IMG/VR virus record: IMGVR_UViG_3300038548_000122
Coordinates: 1 to 30,986 of that record
DNA length: 30,986 bases
Direction: 5' to 3' (one strand)
DNA from: a virus
Every line of letters begins with the position of its first letter. The stretch's first letter is position 1. Shown piece by piece: positions 3,051 through 30,676 of this stretch. The translations under genes were made by a program, and so were the position numbers. The notes beneath the pieces were generated by a model. The model was given only the letters and a program-made list of their open reading frames with translations. It made no database searches and was not told where the DNA came from.

Positions 3051-3690
3051 AACCCACGGCCTCGACTCTCTGTACCCCGAAGAAGGGCCACTTCGACGTG
3101 AGCTATACGTCAAGCATTTGCTCATGTTCGAAGCCGGCGCGATCCACAACGAACGCATCTGCATGGGCGGCAACCGGGTGGGCAAGACCTTCTCGATCGG
3201 CGGCTACGAAACCACCCTGCATCTGACGGGCCTTTACCCTGATTGGTGGAAGGGCCGCGTTTATGACCATCGCATCTTGAGTTGGGCCGGTGGCACCAAG
3301 GCAACCAAGGTGCGCGACGTGAACCAGCTATTCCTGGTGGGCAAGATCCTCGCCGATCGGCAGCTCGCCGGGGGTCTGATTCCGCAGCATCGAATCAAAC
3401 GCTATACGCGCAAGACCGGCATTGCCGACGCGATCGACCAGCTGACCATCAAGCACGTCAACGGCTATGACAATACGCTGATGTTCAAGTCCTACGAGGA
3501 AGGGCGCACCAGCTTTGAGGCCGAGGCCGTCGATTGGATCTGGCTCGATGAGGAACCGACCAGGGCGATCTACGATGAGTGCATGATGCGGCTGTTGACG
3601 GCGCGCGGCTCGATTATGTCCACGTTGACGCCGGTTGAAGGGATCACCGAAACGATCATCGGCATGCTCGAGGAAACGGATTTTCTATGA
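2953..3690 (+). CDS. terL: Terminase large subunit, ATPase half (split gene)
   Basis: A 245-residue protein carrying the packaging-motor ATPase domain and nothing else. Visible motifs are Walker A GGNRVGKT (72-79), Walker B WIWLDEE (195-201, with catalytic acid E200) and the coupling motif STLTPVEG (223-230). The N-terminal sequence EEGPLRRELYVKHLLMFEAG is typical of P22/T4-like large terminases. A normal relative continues into an RNase H-like nuclease domain for a total of about 450-500 residues. Here the protein stops at TGA 3688-3690, right after the ATPase core, and the nuclease appears as a separate gene at 4763. The stop overlaps the start of the first cassette gene (ATGA). The 245 + 242 residues of the two halves add up to a normal whole, so function as a two-chain enzyme is likely. 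Confidence 0.92.
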   Translation: MASLSLSVLEELGQSDPLKAAMLVAQELQRRTETHGLDSLYPEEGPLRRELYVKHLLMFEAGAIHNERICMGGNRVGKTFSIGGYETTLHLTGLYPDWWKGRVYDHRILSWAGGTKATKVRDVNQLFLVGKILADRQLAGGLIPQHRIKRYTRKTGIADAIDQLTIKHVNGYDNTLMFKSYEEGRTSFEAEAVDWIWLDEEPTRAIYDECMMRLLTARGSIMSTLTPVEGITETIIGMLEETDFL

Positions 3691-3917
3691 AACGACCGTT
3701 GTATCCGTATCGGAACAAATGTCAGGATTGCGGCCTACCACTCACGCGAGGGGATATCGTCAGTGCAGAAACCATTTGCGAGGCATGCGCGGGGATCCGC
3801 CTTGTCAAGTCAGCTCATCATCGCCAGGCTCGCGGAATACTCAGTAGCCCACTCCGGAGAGAGGTACGTGATCAGTCTGGAAACGGAGGCGGCGGAATTG
3901 CTGATGGCGATGTGTGA
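3687..3917 (+). CDS. Zinc-ribbon-like small protein in the terminase-splitting cassette
   Basis: A 76-residue protein whose ATG overlaps the stop of the ATPase half (ATGA at 3687-3690). C12-x2-C15 and C31-x2-C34 form a compact zinc-knuckle pattern (NKCQDCGLPL ... ICEACAG). The rest is basic, then Gly-rich, and the last 50 bases overlap the next gene, so the C-terminal tail may be under little selection. It is the first of four genes in the insert. Its function is unknown; the two knuckles suggest binding to nucleic acid or to a partner protein. Confidence 0.6.
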   Translation: MKRPLYPYRNKCQDCGLPLTRGDIVSAETICEACAGIRLVKSAHHRQARGILSSPLRREVRDQSGNGGGGIADGDV

Positions 3918-4101
3918 GGGCGTAAAGATCAAATCCGCCCAGGTCAAAGACAAGGCTGAACGGTTGCAAATGTTGCAGATCGGCAACCAGTTCAAGCGCC
4001 AAGCAGCAAACGGGATGGCGATGGAATATTGCGTCACCAACTTCACCGAGGGCTTGGAGGTTCACGGCGTCGAGATCGACTTCGAGCCGACCATCCATTG
4101 A
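3868..4101 (+). CDS. Small protein in the terminase-splitting cassette, function unknown
   Basis: A 77-residue protein. I chose GTG 3868 because GGAGAGAGG (3855-3863) is a strong Shine-Dalgarno at ordinary spacing. The frame is open further upstream (TTG 3802, ATG 3763), but that part overlaps the zinc-knuckle gene heavily. The sequence has a helical middle (KDKAERLQMLQIGNQFKRQA) and an acidic end (HGVEIDFEPTIH). No motif or family is recognised. The stop overlaps the next start as TTGA (4098-4101). The packing shows it is translated as part of the insert. Confidence 0.6.
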   Translation: MISLETEAAELLMAMCEGVKIKSAQVKDKAERLQMLQIGNQFKRQAANGMAMEYCVTNFTEGLEVHGVEIDFEPTIH

Positions 4102-4598
4102 TCGTCGTTCCGACAGTGCCCCACACAGGCACGCGCTTCATGCGCGATCACCTGTTCGCACGCCTGGAAGATGTCTACGTGGAACACCTGTGGCCGCGCG
4201 AAATAGACAAGTTGAACAAGGCGATGGACACCGCAAAGGCGATCGTTGTTCCGATGCGCCACCCGATCCGCGTGGCTGAGTCGTGGAAGTCGCGCAGCAA
4301 GCTCGAGAGCCCCGGCACCTGGGAGAACCTCGAGGGCTTCTGGTCACGGCTGTTTGAACACGTTGTCCCGCGGGAGGGTGTGTATTATCTGCCGCTCGAT
4401 CTGTCACTCGAGGCGCGACACAGTTGGTTGCAAAGGATCAATGCGGGTCTGCAAATGTCCATCACGACGACCTGGCCGATCGTCAGCGATGGCACGGCGG
4501 CGCTGTTTGCGCTGACCCTCGATCAAAAGGAAAAACAACGTGCCCAATGTATCGTTGATGCTGAACGGCCCTTCTTTGCCCAATTTGGCTATGACTAG
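4098..4598 (+). CDS. Sulfotransferase-like P-loop protein inside the split terminase
   Basis: A 166-residue protein starting at TTG 4098, which overlaps the previous stop (TTGA). ATG 4029 is an upstream alternative, but its extra residues are the shadow of the gene before. The N-terminus, IVVPTVPHTGTRFMRDHLF (2-20), matches the 5'-phosphosulfate-binding loop of sulfotransferases (PxxGTxxF-like). VPMRHPIRVAESWKSR (51-66) matches their 3'-phosphate-binding motif (RxPxRVAxSWxSR). The length is below the usual 250-300 residues, so it is a minimal form. In the family these motifs bind PAPS and transfer sulfate to a sugar, lipid or protein; the substrate here cannot be told. Possible roles are modification of host surface or nucleotide pools. 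The assignment rests on the motifs only. Confidence 0.6.
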   Translation: MIVVPTVPHTGTRFMRDHLFARLEDVYVEHLWPREIDKLNKAMDTAKAIVVPMRHPIRVAESWKSRSKLESPGTWENLEGFWSRLFEHVVPREGVYYLPLDLSLEARHSWLQRINAGLQMSITTTWPIVSDGTAALFALTLDQKEKQRAQCIVDAERPFFAQFGYD

Positions 4599-4770
4599 CG
4601 GCATGAAAAAGGCGTGCGTGCCGTGGGGCTCGTGGAACCTAAACACGGGCGTTTGGCATCACAACCCGCTGCTTGGCGCAACACGCGAAGCACAGCACCA
4701 CGAAAACCTGTTGAACGGCTACTCATGCCCACACGAATACCTCCCGTCGATGTGTCTGATCTGTGAGTAA
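4540..4770 (+). CDS. Small Cys/His-rich protein in the terminase-splitting cassette
   Basis: A 76-residue protein from GTG 4540 with AAAGGA upstream at good spacing; ATG 4594 is a possible shorter start. Its first 59 bases overlap the sulfotransferase-like gene. The second half is distinctive: PWGSWNLNTGVWHHNPLLG, then C63-x-H65 and C72-x2-C75 at the very end (YSCPHEYLPSMCLICE), a likely zinc site. The stop TAA lies inside the start of the nuclease half (GTGAGTAA, 4763-4770), so ribosomes leaving this gene can restart on the nuclease gene. Function unknown. Confidence 0.65.
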   Translation: MPNVSLMLNGPSLPNLAMTSGMKKACVPWGSWNLNTGVWHHNPLLGATREAQHHENLLNGYSCPHEYLPSMCLICE

Positions 4771-5491
4771 ATACGTCGATATGATCGCCTGGGAGGATGC
4801 TCCACATCTGATGCCGCCGAACATTCCCACGGAGGAACTCGATGCCCTCGAAAAGTCGATTCTGCCGCATCAAAGGCAAGCGCGGCGCACCGGCCGGCCA
4901 GCGTTGGGGGCTGGTGCTGTCTATCAGGTCGAGGAAGATTCGATCCTGATCGACCCTGTGCCGATCCCTGATTGGTGGCAACGCGCATACGGGTTCGACG
5001 TCGGCTGGAACCGCACCGCGGCGATATGGGGCGCGCGAGATCCGGACAGCGGCATCTACTACCTGACCCACGAGTATTACGAGAGTGAGCAGCAACCCAT
5101 CGTTCACGCGCACTCGATCAAGATGATTGGCGAGCCCTGGATGGTCGGCGCGATCGACCCGAGCGCCGAGGGATCGAATCAGAAGGATGGGACCAAGCTG
5201 AAAGATGAGTACGAAGACCTGGGCCTCACGCTCGAGAAGGCCAACAACGCAGTCAATTCAGGGATCTTGCGCGTGCTGACGCTGATGCAGGGCGGACAGT
5301 TCAAAGTGTTCCGCACGCTTCCGAATTGGCTCAAGGAATTTCGACTCTACCGCCGTGACGAGAAAGGCAAGATCATCAAGAGCAACGATCACCTGATGGA
5401 CGGCACGCGGTACATGGTCAACACCGACATTGTGTGGAATGCACCACCCGTGGATCACAGCGCGACCGCGATGAAAACCGGAGATTGGTAA
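4763..5491 (+). CDS. terL: Terminase large subunit, nuclease half (split gene)
   Basis: A 242-residue protein that corresponds to the linker and RNase H-like nuclease domain of a large terminase, which cuts DNA at the start and end of packaging. MIAWEDAPHL (7-16), the basic PHQRQARRTGRPALGAGAVY (35-54), YGFDVGWNRTAAIWGA (76-91, metal ligand D79), AIDPSAEG (130-137, D132) and HLMDGTRYM (210-218, D213) are the expected nuclease landmarks, with all three acidic ligands kept. It starts at GTG 4763, overlapping the previous stop. The missing ATPase part is the gene at 2953-3690. The TAA at 5489-5491 overlaps the portal ATG (TAATG). Confidence 0.92.
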   Translation: MSKYVDMIAWEDAPHLMPPNIPTEELDALEKSILPHQRQARRTGRPALGAGAVYQVEEDSILIDPVPIPDWWQRAYGFDVGWNRTAAIWGARDPDSGIYYLTHEYYESEQQPIVHAHSIKMIGEPWMVGAIDPSAEGSNQKDGTKLKDEYEDLGLTLEKANNAVNSGILRVLTLMQGGQFKVFRTLPNWLKEFRLYRRDEKGKIIKSNDHLMDGTRYMVNTDIVWNAPPVDHSATAMKTGDW

Positions 5492-16448: not shown

Positions 16449-17918
16449 ATGCCGCGGCGGATCACGGTCCCATTCGTTGGCGGTAGCGCCCAGGCGCGGC
16501 GCGTCAGCGTCAACACGCAACGCACCGTGAACTTCCAAGTCGAGAAAAAAGGCGAAGGCGCGAAGTCTCCGTTCATTCTCGAGACAATCCCTGGTCTGAC
16601 GGATCGCGGTGTGGCCGGTGATGGGCGCTTACGCACGCCGCAGATGCCGAAGTGGATCGACCCGGCTGGCAACGAACGACTGTACGGGGTGTGGGGCACC
16701 AAGCTCGTATCCATCGACGATACGTTGACGCCCACGAGCGTTGGCACCCTGAACAACTCAACGGGCGTGGCGCGGATCGCGCGGGGCCGCGACTTCATTT
16801 GCATCGTCGATGGTGATTTCGGCTACACCTGGGACGGCACGACTTTCTTGGAGATCACCGACCTCGATTTTCCGGCCAACTTCGTGCCAGCCGGCGACGT
16901 CACGCACGTTGTCTATCTCGATGGCTTTTTCATCATCAACGATGCCTCCACCGACAACTTCTACATTTCCGCGCTCGAGGATCCGACCAGCTGGAACGCG
17001 CTGGACTTCGATGCCGCATCCGTCGCGCCCGACAACGCGCTGGCGATCGCCGCGTCCGAGTCGATCCTTTACATCGTGGGCGACGAAACGATGGAGCCGT
17101 ACTACAACTCAGGCAATGCCGATTTTCCGTATGAGCTTTATCTACAGTCGGTGGCCGAGTACGGCATCCTGGCGCCGCAGTCGATCGCGGAATCTGACGC
17201 CGGCGTTTTTTACATCGGGACCACGCCGGAAGGTGGCCGTTTCGTGGTCCGCATCCAAGGCACGACGTCGCAAATCATCAGCGAGGACGAACAGGAAAAC
17301 GATCTCGAGGCGCTCATCCAACCCGAAACGGCATACGGGTATATCTATCAGATCGGGACCAAAGCCTTTTACGTGATGCAGCTCGACCCGAACATCGACA
17401 GCAACTCCACGCTTGTCTACAACATCAAGGCTGGCACCTGGGAAAACCGGGCCATGCAGGATGGATCCGCATGGCGCAATGCCGGCCATGGCGTGATCGG
17501 CAACTTCAATGTCATGGGTTCACGCTTTGAAGCACGCATGGGCACCCTGGACGACGAGGTGTTCTTAGATGCGAACGACACACTGATTCGGCGTCGAGTG
17601 ACACAGATCTTTCACACCGACAACATGCTGATGGACTGGTGGCAGATCGTGATCGACCTCGATTCCGGCGTCGGCAAAGCAGCGGGGTTAGATGCAGACA
17701 CGGACCCGATGATTCGGTTGCGCTACTCCGACACCAACGGCGAGTCCTGGTCGAACATTCTTGAAGCGCCAGTGGGGAAGCAGGGCCAGTTCGAACGCCG
17801 CGCGGTGTTCAACAACCTGGGCCAATCGCGTCAGCGCATTTGGGAGATCGAGTATTCCGCTGACACATCGTTGACCATCATCAACGCACATGCGGTGGTC
17901 GAAGTTCTGGACGACTGA
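16449..17918 (+). CDS. Packaged-DNA stabilisation protein, P22 gp10-like
   Basis: A 489-residue protein. P22 gp10 (472 residues) forms the hexameric tail hub that plugs the portal-gp4 channel and keeps DNA inside. The length fits, and so does the sequence: the N-terminus VSVNTQRTVNFQVEK, the ILETIPGLTDRG block and repeated beta blades (ERLYGVWGTKLVSIDD; GDVTHVVYLDGFFIIND; SESILYIVGDETMEPYYN). ISEDEQENDLEAL and KAGTWENRAM are also typical. ATG 16449 lies three bases after the spike stop. Its TGA overlaps the next ATG. Its position after the adaptor and spike fits the tail-hub role. Confidence 0.88.
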   Translation: MPRRITVPFVGGSAQARRVSVNTQRTVNFQVEKKGEGAKSPFILETIPGLTDRGVAGDGRLRTPQMPKWIDPAGNERLYGVWGTKLVSIDDTLTPTSVGTLNNSTGVARIARGRDFICIVDGDFGYTWDGTTFLEITDLDFPANFVPAGDVTHVVYLDGFFIINDASTDNFYISALEDPTSWNALDFDAASVAPDNALAIAASESILYIVGDETMEPYYNSGNADFPYELYLQSVAEYGILAPQSIAESDAGVFYIGTTPEGGRFVVRIQGTTSQIISEDEQENDLEALIQPETAYGYIYQIGTKAFYVMQLDPNIDSNSTLVYNIKAGTWENRAMQDGSAWRNAGHGVIGNFNVMGSRFEARMGTLDDEVFLDANDTLIRRRVTQIFHTDNMLMDWWQIVIDLDSGVGKAAGLDADTDPMIRLRYSDTNGESWSNILEAPVGKQGQFERRAVFNNLGQSRQRIWEIEYSADTSLTIINAHAVVEVLDD

Positions 17919-19234
17919 TGGCGCGCATCAATCCCTATCGTTTTCTGGCAGGGGAGATACCAGACAAGCTCGGTCGCTGGCTCGAGGAATTACGCCGGCA
18001 ACTCAATACCAACACGCTTGCTGCCGAACCCGCCAACGAAGACACCGGGAGCGTCGGTAGCGAATTCATCATTTTCAAAGAAGAAGACACGGCGCGCGAC
18101 ACCACGATTGTCTCAACCGCTGATCCCGAGCTCACGGCCGGCCTCCTGGGTTCGTCGCTGTACGGCATCGAAGGCGAGATCAAAATCGCAAGCTCTGACG
18201 TACAGGGATTTCGCTTCACGATCGACGGCCCCCTGATCGCCAGTTGGGAGTGGTCAACGACCGATGCGGGTGGCGTTCACAACACCGGCCTGGGCGCGAA
18301 AGGTGTCGATCAGGTCTTCACTGAAACTGACGCCAGCCAAACGATTCGCTTTGGCGGCATGTGCAAGACCACCGTGGCCGCTACGCTGGCGTTCGCCTGG
18401 GCGCAAGAAACGAGTGACGCCGGCAGCACGTCCGTTCTCCAAGGAAGCTGGATGCGAATCACGCGGCTGACCGTCGAAGGACCACCCGCCGCGGCCGACA
18501 TCGCTGATTTCATTGCCAGCCTGGGCACGGCCGTCACCCATCGCTGGAAGCACGATGAAGTAGCCGTGCCTCTGTTGGACACCGGCGACGGCTCCGCGAT
18601 CGACCTGACGGAAGTTGGAACGATGGGCGGTTTTGAGCTAGGCGGACCAGACGATTCAACGGAGTCGATCGACTACGCCAGCTCGTCTACATTTGTGAGG
18701 AACACCAGCGTAGGGTTCTCGAGCGCAGCGACGGGCACTGTGCTGGCTTTCGTTAAGAATTTCGGCACCACCGTTACCGTCGTCTGCAACTCGAATACCG
18801 TCAATGAAGCCTTTACGTTTTCCTTCGGCATGAACCCACAGGGCACCGGGACGCCGAATCGAATCGGTGCGTCGATGTTCCTCGCCAATCTGTTCAACCG
18901 CAGGCAATGGATCGGCAGCACGGATACAACATCGTGGAGTGCAGACGGCTTATGGCATCTGATCGGTTGGGTTGCTGATGGGTCGGGAACGATGCGGATC
19001 AACGTGGATGGCGTCGAAGACACCGTTTCAGAGGCGACACTAGGGACGCCGCCAGCATCAAGCGCATGGTTCACCGATGTCGCACAAGCGAACAGCCGTG
19101 GGGTATTGGGGAATAACCGCTTCTCGTCAGGCTCGGGCAACATGACAGGGGAGGCATCCGAGGTTCTCATCCTCGATGGCGTGGAGCTGACCGAGGCGCA
19201 GTTCGCTGAATTGTTCTCGCTGATTACGAATTGA
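17918..19234 (+). CDS. Fibre-like protein with LamG/concanavalin-type C-terminal domain
   Basis: A 438-residue protein starting in TGATG (17916-17920). A short N-terminal helix (PDKLGRWLEELRRQLN, 15-30) probably anchors it in the tail. Residues about 45-187 form a beta domain ending VLQGSWMRITRL that is similar to the C-terminal domain of the spike gene. Residues about 200-438 match a LamG-like jelly roll: ALDTGDG-type strands, GLWHLIGWVADGSGTMRINV and the closing GEASEVLILDGVELTEAQF. LamG-type domains usually bind glycans, so receptor recognition is likely. No chaperone or peptidase is seen. It is followed by a 37-base gap with a small hairpin. Confidence 0.78.
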   Translation: MARINPYRFLAGEIPDKLGRWLEELRRQLNTNTLAAEPANEDTGSVGSEFIIFKEEDTARDTTIVSTADPELTAGLLGSSLYGIEGEIKIASSDVQGFRFTIDGPLIASWEWSTTDAGGVHNTGLGAKGVDQVFTETDASQTIRFGGMCKTTVAATLAFAWAQETSDAGSTSVLQGSWMRITRLTVEGPPAAADIADFIASLGTAVTHRWKHDEVAVPLLDTGDGSAIDLTEVGTMGGFELGGPDDSTESIDYASSSTFVRNTSVGFSSAATGTVLAFVKNFGTTVTVVCNSNTVNEAFTFSFGMNPQGTGTPNRIGASMFLANLFNRRQWIGSTDTTSWSADGLWHLIGWVADGSGTMRINVDGVEDTVSEATLGTPPASSAWFTDVAQANSRGVLGNNRFSSGSGNMTGEASEVLILDGVELTEAQFAELFSLITN

Positions 19235-19271: not shown

Positions 19272-20570
19272 ATGGGTTTGAAGGAAATCGTCACGACGGC
19301 TGCCACGGGAGCCAGCGGTGGCTGGGTGGTTCCTCTCGCCATGGCCGTATCGTCGGGCCTTAGTGCTTACTCAAGCGCCCGAACCGGCCAGCAAGCAGCG
19401 GAGGCATCGGTAGAAGCCACCCGGCTACAGGTCGATGAGCTGCGCCGACAGTTCGATTATCAGCAATCGGTCTTGTTGCCTCGGATACAGTTGCAATACG
19501 CCGCGTCGGGTGCGTTTGCCGATCTCCTGGGCATTGGCAACAACAACCAGGTCGGCAGTCCCACGTTCAATGCCAGCGCACCACCGACGCCGGGTGTCAC
19601 GTCTGGTGGTGTCCCTCTCGGCGGCGCTGTCACCGCGCCGGGACAGCCGGGGCCGTCAACAGGCGGCACGAACTACGTTGGTGGGCCTCGAGTCGGGCCA
19701 ACAACGCCGGCAACAGGCGGCAGCAACTACGTTGGTGGGCCGCGAACGGGACAACCTCCACCGGGGGGGATACCGGGACAGCCTCCTGCAATGGCGCTGC
19801 CTTCGGGTGGTTCGGCCGGCGCGCGAGCTGCGGCAAATTATGCGACGAGTCCGCAGGGTGTGTACGAAAGTCAGGTGGCTGGCATACCGCCTGGGGGTCA
19901 AGCGCCACAGACCGTCCCGACGAACTATCCACCTGGCGTGTCGCCAGGACCGGACGATCCAAATTTTACGATCCCGAGAGGCGAAACCAACTTCGTTCGT
20001 GATCCGGGCACGGGCTATTTCATCGACCCGAATGTGAACCCTCGAAACCTCGAGGATCTCGCGCGAGAGAACGAAATCTTTGGTCCGGACTTCACCGAGT
20101 CACCGGGCTATCAATTCCAAGTCGAGGAAATGAACCGCGCGCTGGATCGACGACAAAGCGCGGGTGGCAACTACGGTGGTCGAGCGGTGATCGAAGCGCA
20201 GCGCCGCGGACAAGGGGTTGCGGCGGGTGATTACTATAATTGGGCCGCAGGACGCGAGCGCGAAGTCGGGCGGATCGAGCAAGGCGCATCGCGCGATCTC
20301 GCGCGGGACGATCAGTCGTATCAAAACTATCTGGCGAACCTTCGTGCGATGGCAGGATTCGGTGACGTGGCAGGTCAGGCCGTGAGCAGCTCGGCAGCAA
20401 CGGCGGGAGGAATCTCATCGGCGATCGGCGCGGGTGGTCAGCGCAGCACGGACATCATCACGGGCACTGGCACGAACATTCACAACGCCATCGTTTCGGG
20501 TCAGGAGAATGTCGCGGCCTACTATATGTCTCAGCGACCGCAGACACCGCCGCCCGAGGGGTTCTACTAA
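19272..20570 (+). CDS. Probable DNA-ejection (internal virion) protein
   Basis: A 432-residue protein, ATG 19272 with GGAG upstream. Residues about 17-40 are hydrophobic and Ala/Ser-rich (GGWVVPLAMAVSSGLSAYSS). Next is a helix (EATRLQVDELRRQFDYQQSV), then about 150 residues of Gly/Pro/Thr low-complexity linker that includes a tandem TGG-S/T-NYVGGPR repeat. The C-terminal third carries the characteristic block ESPGYQFQVEEMNRALDRRQ, then GGRAVIEAQRRGQGVAAGDYY. I recognise this from podovirus proteins annotated as DNA-transfer or internal virion proteins. They leave the particle with the genome and help form the channel across the envelope. The stop overlaps the next ATG. Confidence 0.78.
   Translation: MGLKEIVTTAATGASGGWVVPLAMAVSSGLSAYSSARTGQQAAEASVEATRLQVDELRRQFDYQQSVLLPRIQLQYAASGAFADLLGIGNNNQVGSPTFNASAPPTPGVTSGGVPLGGAVTAPGQPGPSTGGTNYVGGPRVGPTTPATGGSNYVGGPRTGQPPPGGIPGQPPAMALPSGGSAGARAAANYATSPQGVYESQVAGIPPGGQAPQTVPTNYPPGVSPGPDDPNFTIPRGETNFVRDPGTGYFIDPNVNPRNLEDLARENEIFGPDFTESPGYQFQVEEMNRALDRRQSAGGNYGGRAVIEAQRRGQGVAAGDYYNWAAGREREVGRIEQGASRDLARDDQSYQNYLANLRAMAGFGDVAGQAVSSSAATAGGISSAIGAGGQRSTDIITGTGTNIHNAIVSGQENVAAYYMSQRPQTPPPEGFY
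19657..19741 (+). repeat. 31-base tandem-type repeat coding for TGG-x-NYVGGPR
   Basis: Two copies, 19657-19687 and 19711-19741, are identical at 29 of 31 bases with a 54-base period. Both lie in frame in the linker of the ejection protein. They look like a recent in-frame duplication in low-complexity coding DNA. Confidence 0.8.
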
Positions 20571-21493
20571 TGGCCGAAATGAAATTCTTTAACTACTCGA
20601 AGATCGTCAAGGACGCAGACGAACATCGACTTGCGGGACAGCGAAACCAGCTCAACGTCTTCAAGCTCGAGGAAGCCAAACGCCTCAGTGATAAACGCAA
20701 GAAATTCGACGCGATCGAAAAGCAGTACGAAGACACTCCCGCACGCATCCTGGCGCTCGAGGAAGCCGGGTTGTACGCCCAGGCCCAAGAGCTTGCGGAT
20801 AGTCACGTCAAGATCGCCAGAGGGACGATCGAGGTGATGAGAGCTGACGCGCTCAAGGTGGATGCAAAGAATTGGGACGAATACCGTTGGGAGAAAATCA
20901 ACCAGGACGGCGTGCCGTCGTGGGTGCTGCCTGTCAAATATGACCCGTCGTGGATGGAAAGCCAACTCAAGGGGGCCGCTGGCGCGGTCAAAACCAACAC
21001 GTTCAAGTGGGGCGATCCTGACGATCCAAACCGCGTGCTGGCGCAAGATACCGTCCGCGATGCGGCGGGGAACATCATCCGACAAGGCACCCCGTACAGG
21101 CCGAGCGGCACGAGCGGTCAGGCAGGTGATCTGCCGCCTTCAATCATCAACAAGATCAACAACCCGATAGAGGCAGCGTTTGGCGGTGGCGTCCACCCGA
21201 TCACGGGAAGGCTGACGATTTTGGAGCCGCAGGTCCGCATGCAAGTCGTCCAAGCGCAGGAGCGAGCGCAGTATCTACTGAAAACTGGTGAAGCGCGCAC
21301 GCCGGGGCAAGCTGTCGCAATAACGCTTCGACAAATGGGGATGACGATTCCGAATTTAACCAACGATCCAGTCGGCATCAGACAGCCCCGCGGCGGTGGT
21401 GGTGGTGGCGGCGGTGGTGGTGGCGGTGGTGGTGGCCCAAGTATTCAACAGCAGTATGACGCCGCTGGTCGTCCGCTACCTTCGCAGCGATAA
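20570..21493 (+). CDS. Probable internal virion/ejection protein with poly-Gly linker
   Basis: A 307-residue protein starting at TAATG, with AGGGG upstream (20556-20560). Residues about 10-100 are a charged helical coiled coil (LEEAKRLSDKRKKFDAIEKQYED, read in two parts around residues 32-54). The centre has mixed character (ADSHVKIARGTIEVMRADAL; VPSWVLPVKYDPSWME), and residues 220-260 are again helical (VRMQVVQAQERAQYLLKTGE). A run of 15 Gly (GGN codons 21392-21436) precedes the last ~20 residues. It sits between an ejection-type protein and the giant internal virion protein, so it is likely to belong to the same ejected set. No family is named with confidence. Confidence 0.7.
   Translation: MAEMKFFNYSKIVKDADEHRLAGQRNQLNVFKLEEAKRLSDKRKKFDAIEKQYEDTPARILALEEAGLYAQAQELADSHVKIARGTIEVMRADALKVDAKNWDEYRWEKINQDGVPSWVLPVKYDPSWMESQLKGAAGAVKTNTFKWGDPDDPNRVLAQDTVRDAAGNIIRQGTPYRPSGTSGQAGDLPPSIINKINNPIEAAFGGGVHPITGRLTILEPQVRMQVVQAQERAQYLLKTGEARTPGQAVAITLRQMGMTIPNLTNDPVGIRQPRGGGGGGGGGGGGGGGPSIQQQYDAAGRPLPSQR
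21392..21436 (+). repeat. In-frame (GGT/GGC)15 microsatellite encoding poly-Gly
   Basis: Fifteen consecutive glycine codons (GGT or GGC) form a trinucleotide repeat near the 3' end of the gene at 20570. Because the unit is three bases, slippage would change linker length without a frameshift. Confidence 0.9.
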
Positions 21494-21496
21494 GGT

Positions 21497-24400
21497 GTGG
21501 CAGAGGAACAAACCAAGCTCGATATTTACCGAAAGCGCAACCCGCGCTTCGATGATGTCTCAGACGATATCCTGGTCAACAACCTGTGGGAGAGCCACTA
21601 TCAGGACATTGATGCGGACGTCTTCCGCGAGATCATGGGTGTTGGGGATTTTGCAACCACCCGCGAAGGTGAGTTCCAAACCGAGATCATTCGTCCAGGT
21701 CAGAAACCTTTTCGCACCAAGCTCGACGACGTACTGACCGACCCTGAGAACCAACTAAAAGACCAAGCCCCCGACGACCTCGGCTCGGCGCTTGATGAGT
21801 TCGACACCCCACCCGATCACATGGCCCCTTTGCGCGCCCATGCTCAACGCAACATCGACCGTGGAACCTTGGCTAATACGCCGGAAGGGATGGCGTCGGT
21901 GCGTAGCGGATCGGTCAACCACGAGCTGCTCAACGACGGTCGAACGACGCTGATCCCGTTTCAGTGGGATGGCGAGATCCTCGATCCACGCGAAGCGACA
22001 CAGCGAGCGATTGACTCCGGTATTCAATGGCCGGCGTTTGACTCCATCGACGAAGCAACCGCGGCATCAAAGCAGTTGAGCGGCAGTCTCGAATTAAACC
22101 TGCGCGTCGGCCAAGGCGCATGGGCCGACCCCGAGCGACCTGGCTACTTCTCCAACATTGCTCGACGCGGCGGCGAGCGTATGGCGGGGCTGGTCGGCAG
22201 CGTGCTCACCACAACTTCGACGCTGACCGAAACCACTGGCCGCGCGGGTGATGTGGCGCTCGCGGAGTGGTGGTACGACCCAGGGCTCGAGCGCGACGTC
22301 GCCGTGAACTACGCGAAGACCCGACCCAACTTCTTCGCCACGTTGGGCGAACACCTGCAAAACGTCGATTACGGTTCGGTCGAGAACTACGGCAAAGAGA
22401 AGATCGAGGAAGCCTGGGACAAAGGCGAATACCTGGGGATGACGGGCGAAATCATTGCCTGGGGCATTGAGGAAGGGGCCGCGTCGATCCCCGATATGAT
22501 CGGCGTTATGTACGCCTTGCCGTCGTACATCACCGCACGCTCCGGAGAGATGGGCACGGAACGCGCGAAGAACGACGGCCGCGATCAAGCGACGACGACC
22601 GACATCATCACAGCTATCCCGGCCGCGATCGGTTCTGCGCTGTTCGAACGATGGGGTGCCTCGTTCATCATCAAGCAGATGCAAAAAGCGGGAATGGCTT
22701 TCAAGAAGGATGCGCTCGAGACAGCGGAAGATCTCGGACGAAATCTGATCCAGCGGGTGTGGGAAAGCGTCAAAGGTGCTGGCAAAACTGCCGGCATGGA
22801 AGGGTTCACCGAAGCCGTGCAGGAAGGGGTGTTCGAATACCTGGGCGAGACTTGGGGCACGGACGTCGAGCTGTCGGCACGTAAGGCAGCAATCCGTGGA
22901 TTTTGGGGTGCGCTCGCCGGTTTTGTGTTCGGTGGCACAGCGGGTGGCCTGAGTACCGCGGCGAAAGAGGCCGGCCATGCGATCAGTGCGCTGGACGCCA
23001 TCCCCGAAGAATTCCTGACGGATCCCGATATGCGTCCGGACCCTGACGGACCAAGGCCAGATCCACCGACGCGGCCGGGAGAGGAAGGGCCACCGATCGA
23101 GGAACCACCAGCTGATATCGACGCAGACCTGGCGCAGCAATCCGAAGTCGCAATGGGTGAGGTCGCGCGTCTTGAAGATGAAGTGGCAAGCCTTGAAAAA
23201 GAGATCGACCAGCTCGATCCAGCCGACACCGAAGCGCGCCTCGATGCAGGTGGATTGCTCGCGGGGGCCGAGGCTGACTTGCAAACAGCTCGAGCGAATC
23301 AGACGCGGATCGACAAAGAGATCGAACGGCGTAAGTTCGGGCCACCGCCCGAGCGCCCACGCGACCTACCGTTCGAGGTTGAAGAAGATCTCGAGAAATC
23401 AAACGCCGAGGTCACTCGTCTTGAAGGTGAATTGGCGACCCGCGAACAAGATCTGAAAGACGACCGTTTGCTCCAGACCCTCGGCCGGGTGACACGTGCC
23501 GACGTCGAGGCCAGCGAAAGACGAGTCAGTGAGGCGCAAGCTGAGTTGGACGCGGAGAGAACCAATCAGACAGAGCTTCAAGAAAGGCTCGACAACTTTG
23601 TTATCGAAGACATTTCCGAACTGACGCAGGCCGACTTGAAGGCGCTGTGGGAAGAAAGCAGCCGGAAATGGCAAGCAGCCGAGGAAGCCGGCGACGTCGC
23701 ACTCGCGGCCACGCTTAAAGCCGAACTCGACACGGTGCAGGATGAGGTCTTGCGCCGCGAAGCAGCCGGCGAACTCGAGCCAGCGCCAAGCGAGACATTC
23801 CCGCCACCGGACTACACGCCCACAACAGAGGCGGAAACGCTGCTCGAGGATATACGACTCGAGATTATCCAACTCGAGTTCCAGAACAACGAGGTGCGCG
23901 AGCAGCTCGACGCATTGACGCCCGAACAGCGAGCAAACATTCCCCCGGCAGAGTGGCTTAACTACGCCGAGCTGTTCGCCTCATTCGAGGAACGCCGCAT
24001 CGACTACGTGCGGCAAAAAGCAACCGTCGAGCAGCTCCGCGCCGACCGCCAGCGCCCAGGTCGAGAGGTTGACGAAGCACTCGCCAAAGACATCATGGAC
24101 GTCTTGCGTTCGATTCGAGACTTTGGACCGAACGTCGATATTGCCGTGAACGCCGAAGAAATGGCCGAAATGGTTGCTCGAGCGCAGCGAGGGGAGAACC
24201 TCGAGGCTATCGCGGCGGCGTTCTGGCGCGGGGAACTCGAGAGCGTTGGCGGTTTCGACGTCGAAGCCGAAAACGCCCGCATCGAGGCAGAAGACGAAGC
24301 GGAGCGAGAAATCCAACGCGAGCGATTGGGTCCAGAATTTCGCGCCTACGAAGCTGCCACGCGCGAGCTGCAGGAACTTGTCGCGCAGCTTTCGAAGAAG

Positions 24401-27400
24401 TACGGGGAGTGGGAACGGTTCGACTACGACGAGCGGATCGGCACGGAGATCGACACGCTCAAAGAACAGTTTGACGAGCTGGACGCGGAACGCGACAGGT
24501 TGAAAGCTCTGTGGCAAGCCGCGAGCCCTGTGGTCCGCACCAGCTTTGCCGGCACCTACGAAATGGCCGGCCAGGAATTCGAGTTCGAAAACGCGCTCGA
24601 CGTCAACCCTCAAACCATGCAGCTAATCATGGAACGCATGTCTGAGGCCGGGATGGACCCCACCAGCCGGGACGCGGACGATGAGTCCGTCTACGGCCGT
24701 CAGGACTTCCACCAATACGCCGAAGAACACGGCTACGACGGGATCATCTTCCACGGTTGGCCCCAACGGGATTTCGAGATCGCGTCGGATATGGGCTTCG
24801 ACGAAGAACTGATGGATGAGTCCGTCGAAGACATCGCGCGTGAAGTTCCGCCGCCCACGCCGCCCACGGACATCACGCCGCCTCCGGAGGTCACGCCGAC
24901 CGCGCGTGATTGGCGGTACGTGGATCCGCGTATGAAGCGCCAGAAGTTTCGTGATTTCCTCCGGGGGCTCAAAGAGGAATTCCAATCCGGCAAGGGTGTG
25001 GGTTCGATCGTTCGGGATCCAATTAGCGGAGAGGTCACGGGCCGCATCACCAGCCCGAATCCGCTATGGGTTCAGGAGTACCTCTCTGAAACCGGCATGA
25101 CGGTCGAGCAGGTTCACAACGCGATCGACAAAGCCCTGGCCGGCCAACGCCTGGGGCATCGTCAGGAAGCATTGGTCAAATCGCTGCTCGACAAGATCAG
25201 CGACGATCGCCAGGAAAAATACATCGACGCCGCACGCAAAGAACTCAAAAAAAGGCGGGACGAGCGGCGAAATTTTGGCGGCGATCCGGACGCAAGGATC
25301 GAGGACGAGTTTTACGACAAGCTCGGCGAGAACTTCGCCGAGTCAGACTATTGGAACTTCGACGATCAGGAACGGATCATCAACGATCTGGCCTATCGGC
25401 TCGTTGAGCTTGGCCTTGACCCCGACCCGATCCTCGCACGCTCACGGAATGACGAAGAACTCATCAGGCGCTTAGAGGAAGCTCTATATGACTACGAAGC
25501 GGGGACGCGCGGTCTTGAGGCGGATGCGGGAGAACAAGCGGACGGGCCACAAGCCGGCGTGGAAGCATACGTTGAAGCCTTTGAAGCAACCGGATGGCGA
25601 GTCGAAGGATTAGCTCCCGATCAGATCTACACCGATGCGGAGGCTGCTTATCCGATATTCGGACCAGCCGGGTATTTCTTCTTCAATGAAGCAGATGCCG
25701 GCAAGTTTGCGGAAGACCCCATCCGCGACTATCCAGAGGCGCAACCCGAGATCACGTCAGAGCCCGTGGTCATTGCGAGTCCCTACCGCATCCGCACTGA
25801 CGCCGAATACAAGGCGCTCGTCACCGCGTCTGGATGGGACGGCTTTCCCAACCCAATGCAGATGCAAGGCACGCCAGAAGAACGGTTGGCGAAGTATCAG
25901 GAGTTCGCCAACGGCATCCGCGAGTATCTAGCCACGCACGGTTTCGATGGCGTCGTGATTGAATTCCACTCCGGCGTCATGGATGTAGACGTTGCGGGCA
26001 ATCCGATCTCGTTGATACGCGACGTGTTCGATACGCCGCAGATGATCGTGTTTGCCCCGTCAGATGAAGCCCTGGCCGGCGCTGACGACCTGGCTGGCTA
26101 CATCGGCGCGAGGATCTTTCACGAAGGCGTGTTGGCCGAGTACACGGGCGCGACCCGAGTGATTGATGGTGACGTGCAATACGAGGTGCTTTTCCTCGCG
26201 GGTGGTCGCCGGGACACCACGGCATGGCTACCGGGCGATCCGATGGAACGCCTCCGTGCCGACCAAGCCCTGGCCGATGAGAAAAGCCGTAAAGCGCGGG
26301 AACTCGAGGGCGGGGAAACCGATCTATCAGATACGCCGCTGTTCGGTCCTGACCAGGGCGACATCTTCGATCTCGAGGGCGTCGAAACCGGAGCGTTGGA
26401 ACAGGTCAGACGTAAGGCGCAGATCCGGCTTCGAGCAGATCGGACCATGGAAACGCTAGGCGAGCAGCTCGGCGAAGACTTCTTGCTGATCGACGACGCA
26501 ATGCTGGACGAGTTCATTCAACGCATGGATGAGGAATTCGCTGGCGACCTGACCGAAGCCCTGGACGACTTCTACGAGCTGACTGCCGCCGAACGCTTGT
26601 TGCTCGACGCGATCATTTCCCGAATCGACACAACGGGCGAGCGGCGCGGCAACACCGAGGCCGAATCTCGCCGCCGCGAAGTCATCGACGCCATGACGCA
26701 CGAACAACGACTGGCGGCGATCTACACCGACGAGCTGACCGGCCTGGGCAATAAACGTTTGCTCAACGAAAACATTATGGATGCGCCTTTCGTCCTCGCT
26801 TTCGATCTGGACAACTTGAGTGTCGTCAACGACGAGCTCGGCCGTGACGTGGGAGACAAGCTGCTGCAGGCCATGGCCGACGTGATCAAGCGGAACGTGG
26901 ACGAGGGCTTCCATACGTCAGGCAGTAACTTCGTGATCCTGGGTGACGATCTTCAAGAGCTGTCGGAGATTGCCGCCGAGATCGAAAAGGACTTGGCCGA
27001 AGCTGCGGTGGGAGGTGAGCGTGGCGAGCTGCGTGGACTCAAAGCGAATTGGGGCGTTGCGCCTGATTTGCGTACGGCTGACCAGGTGGCTCGACTTCAA
27101 AAGCAGAGAAAGCTCGACTCTGGCGAGCATTACCCGCGCGGCGTAGTCCCGCCGAACCTGACCCTGGCCGGCACCACCGATCCCGAGATCGACGCCGCCA
27201 AAGATCCGATGGCCGAACCCGGCGACAACTACATTCCGATGATCGGCAAGACGGGTGAGCTGCCGCTGGATCAGGACAACAACTACGTGCTATCGGATGG
27301 CCGGCGCGTTCGAATTCCCAAAAAGGCGGTACGCAAGGCACACATCATCCGCTACATGAAGGACGTCTTTGGCCTGCAAATCTACACCGGGCGCGTCAAA

Positions 27401-30400
27401 GGCAAGACCTGGCTCGGCTTCTATCGCAAGAGAATCGGTGAGATCCGGACCAAGTTCCAAAACGATCTCGAGGTGACGGCGCACGAAGTCGGTCACTGGT
27501 TCGACGACCGATACAACTACTCAAATCTGTACGAGGCCCACAAGAAAGAGCTGAACGACGTCAGCTACGACTCATCGAAGACCAACGAGGGTTTCGCGGA
27601 GTTCTTCCGTTTGTATCTGACGCAGGAACACGAAGCACAAAAGCGTGCGCCATTCTTCTTCGAAGTCTGGAAAAACCACCTCGACGAGATGAGCGAAAGC
27701 GACCTCAAATCAGATCGGGAAATGGCCGCGGGGTTGCGTGACGTGCAGGAAATGATGCACGCCTGGTATCTGCAAGGCGCGGGGAAACGGTTGGATTCGA
27801 AGATCGGCAATCCCAACTTGCCGCTGTCGATCCGCTTCCAAGAATTCCGCGTCCAGGCCGCTGACTATGTAATCCAAAAGACGCTCGACCAGCTCCGTTC
27901 GTTCAAGCAAGTCGCACGGACGCTTGGTGTCTGGAACGAGCTTGGCGGGTTCTATCAGGACTTCCGCAAAGCCAAGGTCAGCAACGAAGTGGCGATGGTC
28001 TTTATCACGAAGGGCACGGGGATTCGAACCGAAGTCGCGGGCGAGGCGATGCCTGGGCAGTTGAAGCACACCGGCGACGAGCAGGTTGGCGATATGCAAT
28101 GGACCGGCGAGGCGCTTAACGACATCTTCCGCGACGTTGCCGACAACATGGACAACTTCGTTCGCTACATGGTGGCACGCCGCGGCCGTGAGCTTTACAA
28201 CCAGGGCCGTGAACATCACCTGCGCCCCGATGAGATCGTCTTTGGCCTCAAGTTCGGCGTTGCTGATGAGCGTTTCGAGGGTGTGTTCGATCGCTACCAA
28301 GCGTGGAACTCACGGATGATGGATTACTACGTGCAAAGCGGCATCGTCAGTGAAAGCAGCCGTCAGCAGATGGAGGCGATGAACCACGACTATGTGCCGT
28401 TCAACAGGATCATCGACGCCTTAAACTCCAACACCGTGCAGCGCGGCACGAGAACAACGCCCTTCCAACGTTTGCGCGGCGGCACGGCGAACCTCAACGA
28501 CGTGATGGACAACATCCACACCAACACGTCGTTCTTGGTTCACATGGCAATGGTCAACCAGGCCAAGCGTGGCCTCTACGACGCCATCGACAACGCTGAA
28601 GACCAGGCCGGCGCGATGTATGCCGTGAGGATCCCGCGTGAAGTGAAATCGACCATGATTCCGCGGGAGCAGGTCGAGCGCGCCGTCGTGCATGGTTTTG
28701 GTTTGACCATGCGCGAGTGGCGACACATGACCGATGGGGTTGGAGTTGTGGACGAGGCGGAAGCTCAAATGGTCGAGCGGATCAACGCCGCCTTCGACAC
28801 ATTCGAGCCATTCGTACAGTTTTGGCAAGTGGGCGTGGAGCCGACGTCGGGCAAGGGCGACCAGCTGGTGGATTTCGTGTTCCGCAACGGACGCAAGGAT
28901 TTCTACGAGATCATGGACCCGATGCTGATGGATTCGATCAATCACGTTGGTCCGCAAGCACACAACCTGGCCGTGCGGATCTTGGGTGGCTTCTCCAATC
29001 TGCTGCGCCGCACCGTGACGTCGTTTCCGCTATTTCAATTTAGCAACTGGATCCGCGACACGATGCAAGCCTGGACGCTCACGAAGGGTCGCGCGATCCC
29101 GATCGTGCCAGCAGTCAACGCCCTGTTCGAACGCATGTGGGACGACACACACTATTGGGAATACGTCCTCAACGGCGGCGGCATGGCAACCATCGCCCAG
29201 GCCGAAGGCATCAACGCCGACCACATCATCGACTTCAACAAGCCGGCGCGGGGGCTTTGGGAGAAATCGAAGCGCATGTGGCGGGCCTACGACCGCGCCC
29301 TCTCGACGCTCGAGTACGCCAACCGACTTGCGGAGTTCAAGGAACTTCGAAGGTTGGGTTACAGCAAGCAGGAAGCAGCGTTTGCCGGCCGTGAGATATC
29401 CACCGACTTTGCGATGCGCGGCAGCTCCGACGCGATGCGCGTGATCACGATCTCAATTCCGTTTCTCAACGCCAGGATGCAGGGTGGCTATCGGCTCGCA
29501 AGAGAGGCTTACGCGAAGGGACCAGCCGAATCAGTGGGTCACATCCGATGGCAAAGCGCCATGAAATACGCGAGTCGAGCCATGATCGGCATCACGATCC
29601 CGACCATCGTTCTGTACTTCATGAACAAGGACGACTGGAGATATAAGGACATGCCCGATTGGATGCGGGACATGAATTGGGTGATCTTTTACGGGTGGGG
29701 CGAAGACGACTACGTTTTGATGCCCAAGCCGTTCGAAACCGGCTTGGCCTGGGCGACCGTGCCGGAACGCACCATCGAATATATGTATACGAACGACGAG
29801 GGGGAGCTGGCCGACGCGCTTGGTTGGATGTTCATGGAGACATTTGCCCTGGACGTGCGCCCACAAGCGTACAAGCCCATCGACGAGATCATCCGCAACA
29901 AAAAATGGACCGGAGCCCCGGTGGTTCCTGCATACCTCGAGGACGTGATTGCCTCGCAGCAGTACAAGCACTACACGTCCGACGCGATGGTGGCGCTTGG
30001 CAAGAAGATGGGGATTTCGCCGCTCAAGGCCGAGCATTTGGTGAGTGGCTACGCAGCACAATTAGGCCAGTATTCGCTGGCGGTTGCCGACTTCATCGTG
30101 GGTGATACAACCAATGGCGGTCAAAAGGTCGCGCCTTTTGGTCGGGAGGTTGACGACCAGGCGCTATTCGAACTGTGGGGCCGCGAGTTCTACGCAGACC
30201 TTCCCGAAACGATCTTCGATTCAGTGTTCTTGCAGCGGATCAAGGCTCAAGGCCCGTTGCGCCGCACGCGCAGCGAGGAAGATTTTTACGACCTACTGAA
30301 AGCTGCACGCACGACCGCCAACACCGTCCAGTTGATGAAGCTCCGCGACCTCGAGGGGCTACGGGAATATCTGAGCCGGGGCAAAGAAGCGACGTTCTAC

Positions 30401-30676
30401 GGGCTCGCATCGACGCTCGAGGAACGATCGCGGGAAGTGAACAAGATCAACTCGCGCATGGATGCGGTGGCCGTCAACCCCGATATGACGGGCGTGGAGA
30501 AGCGCGACACACTTAACGAGCTGCAACGCTTCAAAAACCAAATTCACAGGGCCACGATGCAACAGCTCGACGTCGAACAACTCGAGGAAATGGAAGCACT
30601 GATGGAACAAGCCTACGTGCCGCCAGAGCCCGAGTCCGAGGCCAGCCAAACTCTGGACGCCTTGCGACAACAGTGA
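21497..30676 (+). CDS. Giant polyvalent internal virion protein (3059 residues)
   Basis: One frame of 9.2 kb, GTG 21497, three bases after the previous stop. In order: an N-terminal region (IYRKRNPRFDDVSDD); a hydrophobic Gly/Ala segment near 468-485; a long coiled coil about 545-760; an ART-like fragment about 1015-1100 (HGYDGIIF, 1078-1085); and a second ADP-ribosyltransferase-like region about 1355-1525 (GPAGYFFFNEADAGKFAEDP, then HGFDGVVIE and QMIVFAPSDEAL). These are followed by a GGDEF-like domain about 1742-1830 with a broken active loop; a metallopeptidase with HEVGH (1996-2000) and E2031/E2035; an LPD38-like region about 2490-2680; and one membrane helix near 2690-2708. This is the architecture of phage polyvalent proteins, which are packaged and ejected with the DNA. 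No lytic transglycosylase motif was recognised. Confidence 0.85.
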   Translation: MAEEQTKLDIYRKRNPRFDDVSDDILVNNLWESHYQDIDADVFREIMGVGDFATTREGEFQTEIIRPGQKPFRTKLDDVLTDPENQLKDQAPDDLGSALDEFDTPPDHMAPLRAHAQRNIDRGTLANTPEGMASVRSGSVNHELLNDGRTTLIPFQWDGEILDPREATQRAIDSGIQWPAFDSIDEATAASKQLSGSLELNLRVGQGAWADPERPGYFSNIARRGGERMAGLVGSVLTTTSTLTETTGRAGDVALAEWWYDPGLERDVAVNYAKTRPNFFATLGEHLQNVDYGSVENYGKEKIEEAWDKGEYLGMTGEIIAWGIEEGAASIPDMIGVMYALPSYITARSGEMGTERAKNDGRDQATTTDIITAIPAAIGSALFERWGASFIIKQMQKAGMAFKKDALETAEDLGRNLIQRVWESVKGAGKTAGMEGFTEAVQEGVFEYLGETWGTDVELSARKAAIRGFWGALAGFVFGGTAGGLSTAAKEAGHAISALDAIPEEFLTDPDMRPDPDGPRPDPPTRPGEEGPPIEEPPADIDADLAQQSEVAMGEVARLEDEVASLEKEIDQLDPADTEARLDAGGLLAGAEADLQTARANQTRIDKEIERRKFGPPPERPRDLPFEVEEDLEKSNAEVTRLEGELATREQDLKDDRLLQTLGRVTRADVEASERRVSEAQAELDAERTNQTELQERLDNFVIEDISELTQADLKALWEESSRKWQAAEEAGDVALAATLKAELDTVQDEVLRREAAGELEPAPSETFPPPDYTPTTEAETLLEDIRLEIIQLEFQNNEVREQLDALTPEQRANIPPAEWLNYAELFASFEERRIDYVRQKATVEQLRADRQRPGREVDEALAKDIMDVLRSIRDFGPNVDIAVNAEEMAEMVARAQRGENLEAIAAAFWRGELESVGGFDVEAENARIEAEDEAEREIQRERLGPEFRAYEAATRELQELVAQLSKKYGEWERFDYDERIGTEIDTLKEQFDELDAERDRLKALWQAASPVVRTSFAGTYEMAGQEFEFENALDVNPQTMQLIMERMSEAGMDPTSRDADDESVYGRQDFHQYAEEHGYDGIIFHGWPQRDFEIASDMGFDEELMDESVEDIAREVPPPTPPTDITPPPEVTPTARDWRYVDPRMKRQKFRDFLRGLKEEFQSGKGVGSIVRDPISGEVTGRITSPNPLWVQEYLSETGMTVEQVHNAIDKALAGQRLGHRQEALVKSLLDKISDDRQEKYIDAARKELKKRRDERRNFGGDPDARIEDEFYDKLGENFAESDYWNFDDQERIINDLAYRLVELGLDPDPILARSRNDEELIRRLEEALYDYEAGTRGLEADAGEQADGPQAGVEAYVEAFEATGWRVEGLAPDQIYTDAEAAYPIFGPAGYFFFNEADAGKFAEDPIRDYPEAQPEITSEPVVIASPYRIRTDAEYKALVTASGWDGFPNPMQMQGTPEERLAKYQEFANGIREYLATHGFDGVVIEFHSGVMDVDVAGNPISLIRDVFDTPQMIVFAPSDEALAGADDLAGYIGARIFHEGVLAEYTGATRVIDGDVQYEVLFLAGGRRDTTAWLPGDPMERLRADQALADEKSRKARELEGGETDLSDTPLFGPDQGDIFDLEGVETGALEQVRRKAQIRLRADRTMETLGEQLGEDFLLIDDAMLDEFIQRMDEEFAGDLTEALDDFYELTAAERLLLDAIISRIDTTGERRGNTEAESRRREVIDAMTHEQRLAAIYTDELTGLGNKRLLNENIMDAPFVLAFDLDNLSVVNDELGRDVGDKLLQAMADVIKRNVDEGFHTSGSNFVILGDDLQELSEIAAEIEKDLAEAAVGGERGELRGLKANWGVAPDLRTADQVARLQKQRKLDSGEHYPRGVVPPNLTLAGTTDPEIDAAKDPMAEPGDNYIPMIGKTGELPLDQDNNYVLSDGRRVRIPKKAVRKAHIIRYMKDVFGLQIYTGRVKGKTWLGFYRKRIGEIRTKFQNDLEVTAHEVGHWFDDRYNYSNLYEAHKKELNDVSYDSSKTNEGFAEFFRLYLTQEHEAQKRAPFFFEVWKNHLDEMSESDLKSDREMAAGLRDVQEMMHAWYLQGAGKRLDSKIGNPNLPLSIRFQEFRVQAADYVIQKTLDQLRSFKQVARTLGVWNELGGFYQDFRKAKVSNEVAMVFITKGTGIRTEVAGEAMPGQLKHTGDEQVGDMQWTGEALNDIFRDVADNMDNFVRYMVARRGRELYNQGREHHLRPDEIVFGLKFGVADERFEGVFDRYQAWNSRMMDYYVQSGIVSESSRQQMEAMNHDYVPFNRIIDALNSNTVQRGTRTTPFQRLRGGTANLNDVMDNIHTNTSFLVHMAMVNQAKRGLYDAIDNAEDQAGAMYAVRIPREVKSTMIPREQVERAVVHGFGLTMREWRHMTDGVGVVDEAEAQMVERINAAFDTFEPFVQFWQVGVEPTSGKGDQLVDFVFRNGRKDFYEIMDPMLMDSINHVGPQAHNLAVRILGGFSNLLRRTVTSFPLFQFSNWIRDTMQAWTLTKGRAIPIVPAVNALFERMWDDTHYWEYVLNGGGMATIAQAEGINADHIIDFNKPARGLWEKSKRMWRAYDRALSTLEYANRLAEFKELRRLGYSKQEAAFAGREISTDFAMRGSSDAMRVITISIPFLNARMQGGYRLAREAYAKGPAESVGHIRWQSAMKYASRAMIGITIPTIVLYFMNKDDWRYKDMPDWMRDMNWVIFYGWGEDDYVLMPKPFETGLAWATVPERTIEYMYTNDEGELADALGWMFMETFALDVRPQAYKPIDEIIRNKKWTGAPVVPAYLEDVIASQQYKHYTSDAMVALGKKMGISPLKAEHLVSGYAAQLGQYSLAVADFIVGDTTNGGQKVAPFGREVDDQALFELWGREFYADLPETIFDSVFLQRIKAQGPLRRTRSEEDFYDLLKAARTTANTVQLMKLRDLEGLREYLSRGKEATFYGLASTLEERSREVNKINSRMDAVAVNPDMTGVEKRDTLNELQRFKNQIHRATMQQLDVEQLEEMEALMEQAYVPPEPESEASQTLDALRQQ

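Follow-up and report, generated by a model that had tools for sequence, protein, structure and literature searches.

Why should a P22-like phage close its block of head genes with a gene for one polypeptide of 3059 residues? The question is raised by IMGVR_UViG_3300038548_000122, an environmental virus record of 30,986 bases that is classed as linear and is probably a fragment; the whole of this stretch is called the window here. The initial annotation described the product as an ejected multi-enzyme protein joining coiled coil, ART-like, GGDEF-like, metallopeptidase, LPD38-like and membrane segments, and it proposed a domain-by-domain profile search and structure prediction as a check. These approaches recovered an LPD38 domain, a zincin metallopeptidase and a GGDEF fold, but not an ART domain. 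Rather than a multi-enzyme, the protein is most likely a phage polyvalent ejection protein, the ends of which form a conserved delivery frame while the middle is replaceable and mostly unrecognisable cargo.

The giant gene and its neighbours

Pfam and PHROGs scans identify the genes of the window as a P22-like morphogenesis block, with a terminase small subunit (PF03592), a P22-type portal (PF16510, E 3e-155), a P22 coat protein (PF11651, E 3e-57) and an Hc3 head-closure gene. The virus is a short-tailed, P22-like bacterial virus. The giant gene stands at the end of this head and ejection gene block, and the order of terminase, portal, coat, Hc3, ejection genes and giant gene is the same in Vibrio phage 41E34.2. 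No near-identical DNA was found among 50,697 phage records, and a defence-system library gave no match. The block ends with the following genes:

19272..20570, plus strand: candidate ejection or internal virion protein, Gly-rich (weak match to PHROG 805 'internal virion protein', E 0.02; place and order as in the related locus L006)
20570..21493, plus strand: candidate ejection protein, directly 5' of the giant gene (homologs likewise placed in L003, L006 and L066)
21497..30676, plus strand: the whole giant gene, 3059 aa, GTG start, no internal stop

The single gene that had been proposed, covering about 30% of the window (29.6% by our count), is real. Its conserved stretches recur in about 80 independent loci, so that a chance reading frame is not at issue, and the GTG start, 3 bases past the stop of the preceding gene, is credible because the N-terminus lines up with those of homologous phage proteins. 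The gene is phage-encoded and lies near virion genes, with the P22-like portal, coat and Hc3 genes upstream, and its product joins at least two unrelated domains of the published polyvalent set (LPD38, GGDEF and zincin) in one polypeptide.

Two further observations concern the same block. The terminase large subunit is split into 2953-3690 (Terminase_6N) and 4763-5491 (Terminase_6C), which lie in different frames and are separated by about 1.07 kb without a match in Pfam, PHROG or Rfam; the split is a candidate intron, insertion or assembly error. The gene at 17918-19234 separates Hc3 from the candidate ejection genes and matches no family; the second half of its product looks by eye like a LamG/concanavalin-type fold, so that the product is possibly a fibre and not an ejection protein.

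Conserved ends and an exchanged middle

The principal new finding is how the protein is built: the C-terminal 1,000+ residues are conserved across 81 homologs, residues ~216-495 occur in a subset only, and the middle is exchanged. The parts are as follows:

21497..21706, plus strand: short N-terminal motif (YRKRNPRFDDVSDDILVNNL...), residues 1-70; 30-37% identity in some relatives (blastp/phmmer)
22142..22981, plus strand: N-terminal frame module, Gly-rich (GALAGFVFGGTAGG), with a possible membrane-active segment, residues 216-495; in 17-28/81 homologs
22994..27217, plus strand: variable cargo region, residues 500-1907; residues 501-1700 matched by 0-1/81 homologs, other domains in the homologous slot
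22997..23146, plus strand: Pro-rich linker (26% Pro by composition) at the border of frame and cargo, residues 501-550
24674..24781, plus strand: putative ART-like motif 1 (HGYDGIIFHG), residues 1060-1095; motif only
24887..25270, plus strand: unnamed domain, residues 1131-1258, common to one other frame-bearing phage protein, L038 (38-39% identity)
25634..26086, plus strand: putative ART-like region 2 (GFDGVVIEF ... MIVFAP), residues 1380-1530; motif only
26723..27064, plus strand: GGDEF-fold domain (PF00990) of the phage YuA-gp44 type with the degenerate signature SGSNF, residues 1743-1856
27218..27796, plus strand: zincin metallopeptidase, residues 1908-2100, opening the C-terminal frame (motif, fold and homolog alignment)
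27482..27496, plus strand: HEVGH zinc-binding motif, residues 1996-2000 (alignment of homologs)
27797..30673, plus strand: mostly helical C-terminal frame, residues 2101-3059, one conserved unit with the zincin (58-80/81 homologs over 1901-2900)
29567..29623, plus strand: conserved hydrophobic helix, residues 2691-2709, the sole Kyte-Doolittle peak above 1.3
29639..30100, plus strand: LPD38 domain, residues 2715-2868 (PF18857, E 7e-38)

Searched with a C-terminal profile, viral contigs yielded 165 relatives, 80 of which were kept, and bacterial genomes of alpha-, beta-, gamma- and deltaproteobacteria, Campylobacterales, Bacillota and others yielded 37. Counted by residue over 81 proteins, coverage is 17-28 homologs at residues 201-500, 0-1 at 501-1700, 4-9 at 1701-1900 and 58-80 at 1901-2900. 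The N-terminal module (phmmer E down to 1e-37; match to PHROG 15406) was found with a profile built from its hits in 28/81 homologs, and in 27/72 of those with a complete 5' end. Since most relatives have no detectable N-terminal module, the C-terminal part alone is regarded as the general frame and the module as belonging to a subset. A contig of a Sulfurimonas endosymbiont holds two frame copies (L097 and L102); in L102 the N-terminal module matches a 501-aa open reading frame that lacks a C-terminal frame, pointing to a split gene or a frameshift.

Between the two conserved parts, the gap ranges from 170 to 2577 aa with a median of 1292 (n=27), and its content differs between proteins with similar frames. 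The frames of L017 and L059 are 88% identical, yet 1584 and 635 aa, respectively, lie upstream; those of L023 and L064 are 70% identical, with 9% of what precedes them alignable, and those of L024 and L067 are 65% identical, with an upstream part that is wholly unalignable. Pfam domains in the cargo slot of relatives include ddrB-ParB, RadC, N6 methylase, Eco57I, SNF2/helicase, GNAT, inorganic pyrophosphatase, ART-PolyVal and GGDEF.

The LPD38 assignment holds, with 131 bits against a curated cut-off of 27. Catalogues list LPD38 as a domain of fewer than 200 residues with unknown function; here it sits at one end of a unit exceeding 1,000 residues that begins with the zincin, and this unit stays constant while the cargo before it varies, even among close relatives. 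An AlphaFold2 model of residues 1900-3059 from 45 sequences reached a pLDDT of 77.6. It matched no PDB chain at E<=0.001, and in BFVD many predicted phage polyvalent proteins match it over the full length with a TM of ~0.6. Over the ~950 residues past the zincin the fold matches were generic helical bundles only and were set aside; we consequently claim nothing on the fold there.

Other structural elements named in the initial annotation fared less well. Membrane segments come down to the one moderate hydrophobic helix at 2691-2709 and the Gly-rich stretch in 216-495, which are weak candidates at best. The coiled coil is a weak candidate as well: in a crude test, heptad periodicity appears only at about residues 547-595, with no more windows than expected by chance.

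Cargo, zincin and their possible roles

It is probable, in our judgement, that the protein combines a delivery frame with exchangeable cargo and that the zincin releases the latter. The conserved ends, namely the Gly-rich N-terminal module and the zincin followed by ~950 residues of helical LPD38 region, would serve to package the protein in the head and to pass it through the tail together with the adjacent ejection proteins. Residues ~500-1900 in the middle would be the cargo handed to the host at entry. Lying directly after the cargo, the zincin would probably cut the polypeptide and free the cargo, either before packaging or after entry, and the freed cargo may then act on host processes.

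What the cargo might do is best considered from its one assignable domain. The GGDEF fold that had been suspected is present (PF00990, E 2e-9, 37.9 bits against a cut-off of 23.8; NCBIfam TIGR00254 scores just under its cut-off, 33.7 against 37.4), but its catalytic motif is not. The signature reads SGSNF in the window, as opposed to (S/A)GDEF in YuA gp44, CN1 and PaSz-4, SGDEF in L032 and GGDEF in L039, and it departs from the GG(D/E)EF motif of active diguanylate cyclases. The domain keeps FDxDxxxxxND and GD, not the catalytic acids, and in the closest relative, L006, nearly every conserved GGDEF residue is gone. In GGDEF enzymes, the D/E positions of the signature are essential for synthesis. 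Because SGSNF is without them, the domain should not make c-di-GMP; on this sequence reading, cyclase activity is unlikely whereas nucleotide binding may persist, and the domain is probably a non-catalytic remnant or a nucleotide-binding module. The stand-alone YuA gp44-type proteins belong to the same subfamily, sharing 28-32% identity and the tail ADxxxxxxKxxRxxSGxRxxRGxxPP, but their signature is an intact SGDEF or AGDEF, while the copy in the window is degenerate and part of a giant protein. In phages of the YuA, CN1 and PaSz-4 type, the stand-alone GGDEF gene lies directly 5' of an annotated anti-restriction gene (L133 2983-3941, L134 1989-3137, L135 1983-2958), a recurrent pairing.

The claimed ART-like domains could not be substantiated. 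ART-PolyVal (PF18760) has no match at E<=10 in the record, although it does match L038 and L066. When the ART-like regions were aligned by hhalign with five ART or ART-like domains of related loci, they beat all 100 shuffles, but only over stretches of 14-24 residues around GYDG/GFDG in hydrophobic surroundings; the comparison is biased since the regions had been picked for holding the motif, and it does not count as evidence for an ART. A single-sequence model of region 2 was unusable (pLDDT 36.5). With no family match and similarity confined to a GYDG-type motif, both regions are treated as putative ART-like segments.

The remainder of the cargo is equally solitary. Pieces of 541, 82, 73 and 98 aa gave no accepted match in searches for related loci, tblastn with the ART-like and linker pieces gave nothing significant, and Pfam and PHROGs scans detected no polymerase family. 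A 34-residue match to an unrelated 198-aa protein was rejected as pattern-selected. The unnamed domain of ~125 aa has the pattern GxxTGRxxSxNPxWxQ ... KALAGxxLGxR, a copy at ~7130-7500 in L038 and no family match. Judged by its sequence, the present cargo is unusual in that no anti-restriction enzyme is recognised in it. The suggestion in the initial annotation that the protein disarms host defences at entry is for this reason an extrapolation: cargo of the anti-restriction type occupies the slot in relatives, but none is recognisable here.

Perhaps the protein is mainly structural or mechanical, building or anchoring a DNA-entry channel in the manner of analogues of N4 vRNAP or T7 gp16, the middle being a spacer with remnants of former cargo and no effector activity. 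We regard this as a less likely but serious possibility. The loss of the GGDEF catalytic residues, the complete erosion of the domain in L006 and the missing ART family match all fit such a role, as do L055, L059 and L067, which have a similar frame with only 170-300 aa between the frame modules and in which the cargo is evidently dispensable. However, it would be costly to keep 1400 aa of cargo in one open frame for such a purpose, and recognisable enzymes occupy the same slot in relatives.

A delivery frame with releasable cargo remains our preferred reading, and the zincin is the part of it that looks catalytically intact. The metallopeptidase had been called correctly. H1996, E1997, H2000, E2031 and E2035 are invariant in 45/45 aligned homologs, position 2003 is Asp in 37/45, and the domain unites HExxH, a downstream Glu ligand and a zincin fold. 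Several zincin families top the list of fold matches (VIA-align Z 6-7.6, where Z <8 is weak taken alone), including lethal factor (Z 7.6 over 141 residues, rmsd 6.8, or Z 7.5 over 125 residues, rmsd 3.2) and PPEP-1 (Z 6.9 over 120 residues, rmsd 3.3). We accept the fold despite these values because different zincin families lead the list and the catalytic residues agree. Membership in Pfam ATLF, the lethal-factor-type peptidases, was rejected since scores of 15.9 and 19.9 bits fall below the 27.4-bit cut-off; the resemblance is no more than that, and the protein is called a zincin rather than a lethal-factor family member. A zincin group with HExxH plus Asp three residues on has been described in phage polyvalent proteins (Iyer et al., 2017; PMC5512222), and HEVGH with D2003 fits this group, having the same spacing. 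L014, L029 and L073 show no HExxH, the frame being read short there; L014 and L073, which probably represent broken or truncated frames, were excluded from the argument. In L008, the cargo of the giant protein contains a second HExxH at residue 1031 (THELIHAATSY) like the N4 vRNAP zincin motif HELIHAAT.

It is also conceivable, if rather unlikely, that the zincin is itself the effector and cleaves a host protein after entry, the remainder serving in targeting. Its zinc site is intact, its structure resembles effector zincins, and this alternative is listed by Iyer et al. (PMC5512222). Yet the zincin is a constant part of the frame irrespective of the cargo carried, and this is easier to reconcile with a general role in processing or structure than with a host-specific target. 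More daring is the scenario in which the degenerate GGDEF domain enters the host ready to bind guanine or cyclic dinucleotides and dampens c-di-GMP signalling or a defence based on nucleotide signals, residues 500-1700 hold new effector folds and the LPD38 frame is a general delivery vehicle for nearly any cargo; we consider this combination quite improbable. Least probable is a multi-enzyme with working diguanylate cyclase and ADP-ribosyltransferase domains that would reprogramme signalling in the host and modify its proteins, for although the GGDEF profile exceeds its cut-off and two GYDG-type motifs are present, SGSNF lacks the acidic metal and catalytic residues kept by YuA gp44, CN1, PaSz-4, L032 and L039, and ART similarity ends at the motif. 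The term multi-enzyme was thus an overstatement: with the GGDEF catalytic residues lost and an ART domain not demonstrated, only the zincin keeps an intact catalytic motif and no multi-enzyme activity can be claimed.

If the protein does deliver exchangeable cargo, the LPD38 unit would be a natural phage protein-delivery frame, the role of which in packaging, ejection or cargo release is directly testable, and reading cargo slots would be a systematic route to entry-stage effectors.

Relation to known systems

That the product is a virion-borne polyvalent protein, as initially annotated, is well supported by its domains, its gene position, its homologs and published mass spectrometry of JC1 gp69 (PMC9144972). 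In CsCl-purified virions, JC1 gp69 was detected with 51 unique peptides and a score second to the major capsid protein (PMC9144972), and by homology this is the strongest indication that the protein of the window would be packaged. JC1 gp69, which is grouped with the Bcep22 DarB-like protein and is 4515 aa long, aligns with the frame profile at 3722-4512 (740 positions, E 1.7e-59), carries LPD38 and is likewise encoded by the last gene of its morphogenesis block. In contrast to the giant protein of the window, its cargo is lysozyme-like, methylase/helicase and LPD3, and neither the N-terminal module nor the zincin part of the frame profile is detectable in it.

The BA3-like podoviruses (Vibrio 41E34.2, Shewanella X14, Thalassomonas BA3 and Vibrio VvAW1) encode a giant 'DNA methylase/DarB-like' protein at the same gene position. 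The C-terminal frame of these proteins is 27-33% identical to that of the window and the N-terminal module ~35% in 41E34.2 and X14, but the middle differs and is annotated as methylases.

A similar plan exists in N4 vRNAP (gp50), which comprises a membrane-binding N-terminal domain, the enzyme, an HExxH domain C1 and a helical C2 of ~1100 residues, and is ejected as beads on a string (PMC12633501), but its cargo is an RNA polymerase. The C-terminal frame of the window showed no significant similarity to the N4 vRNAP CTD by single-sequence, profile-profile or subdomain comparison, nor any hmmsearch match at E<=10. Cleavage by the zincin is not certain, because N4 vRNAP, which also bears an HExxH domain, is packaged uncut according to work cited in PMC5512222.

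Iyer et al. (2017; PMC5512222) described both the polyvalent class and the single domains found in it; they propose that the zincin processes these proteins and that delivery accompanies the DNA, and their examples include an Acetonema longum prophage protein that joins GGDEF, SNF2 ATPase, methylase, zincin and ART (PMC5512222). Like these proteins (PMC5512222), the one in the window unites unrelated domains in one giant chain, with LPD38, a zincin of the HExxH plus Asp type, GGDEF and a structural gene neighbourhood; unlike them, it carries no methylase/helicase, ParB or other enzyme recognised in the cargo, its GGDEF domain is degenerate and most of residues 500-1700 are unmatched. The combination that the initial annotation thought might be new is so with regard to this cargo, but not with regard to the class or the single domains. 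What is new is the cargo and how clearly the frame can be delimited, within a class of system that is already known.
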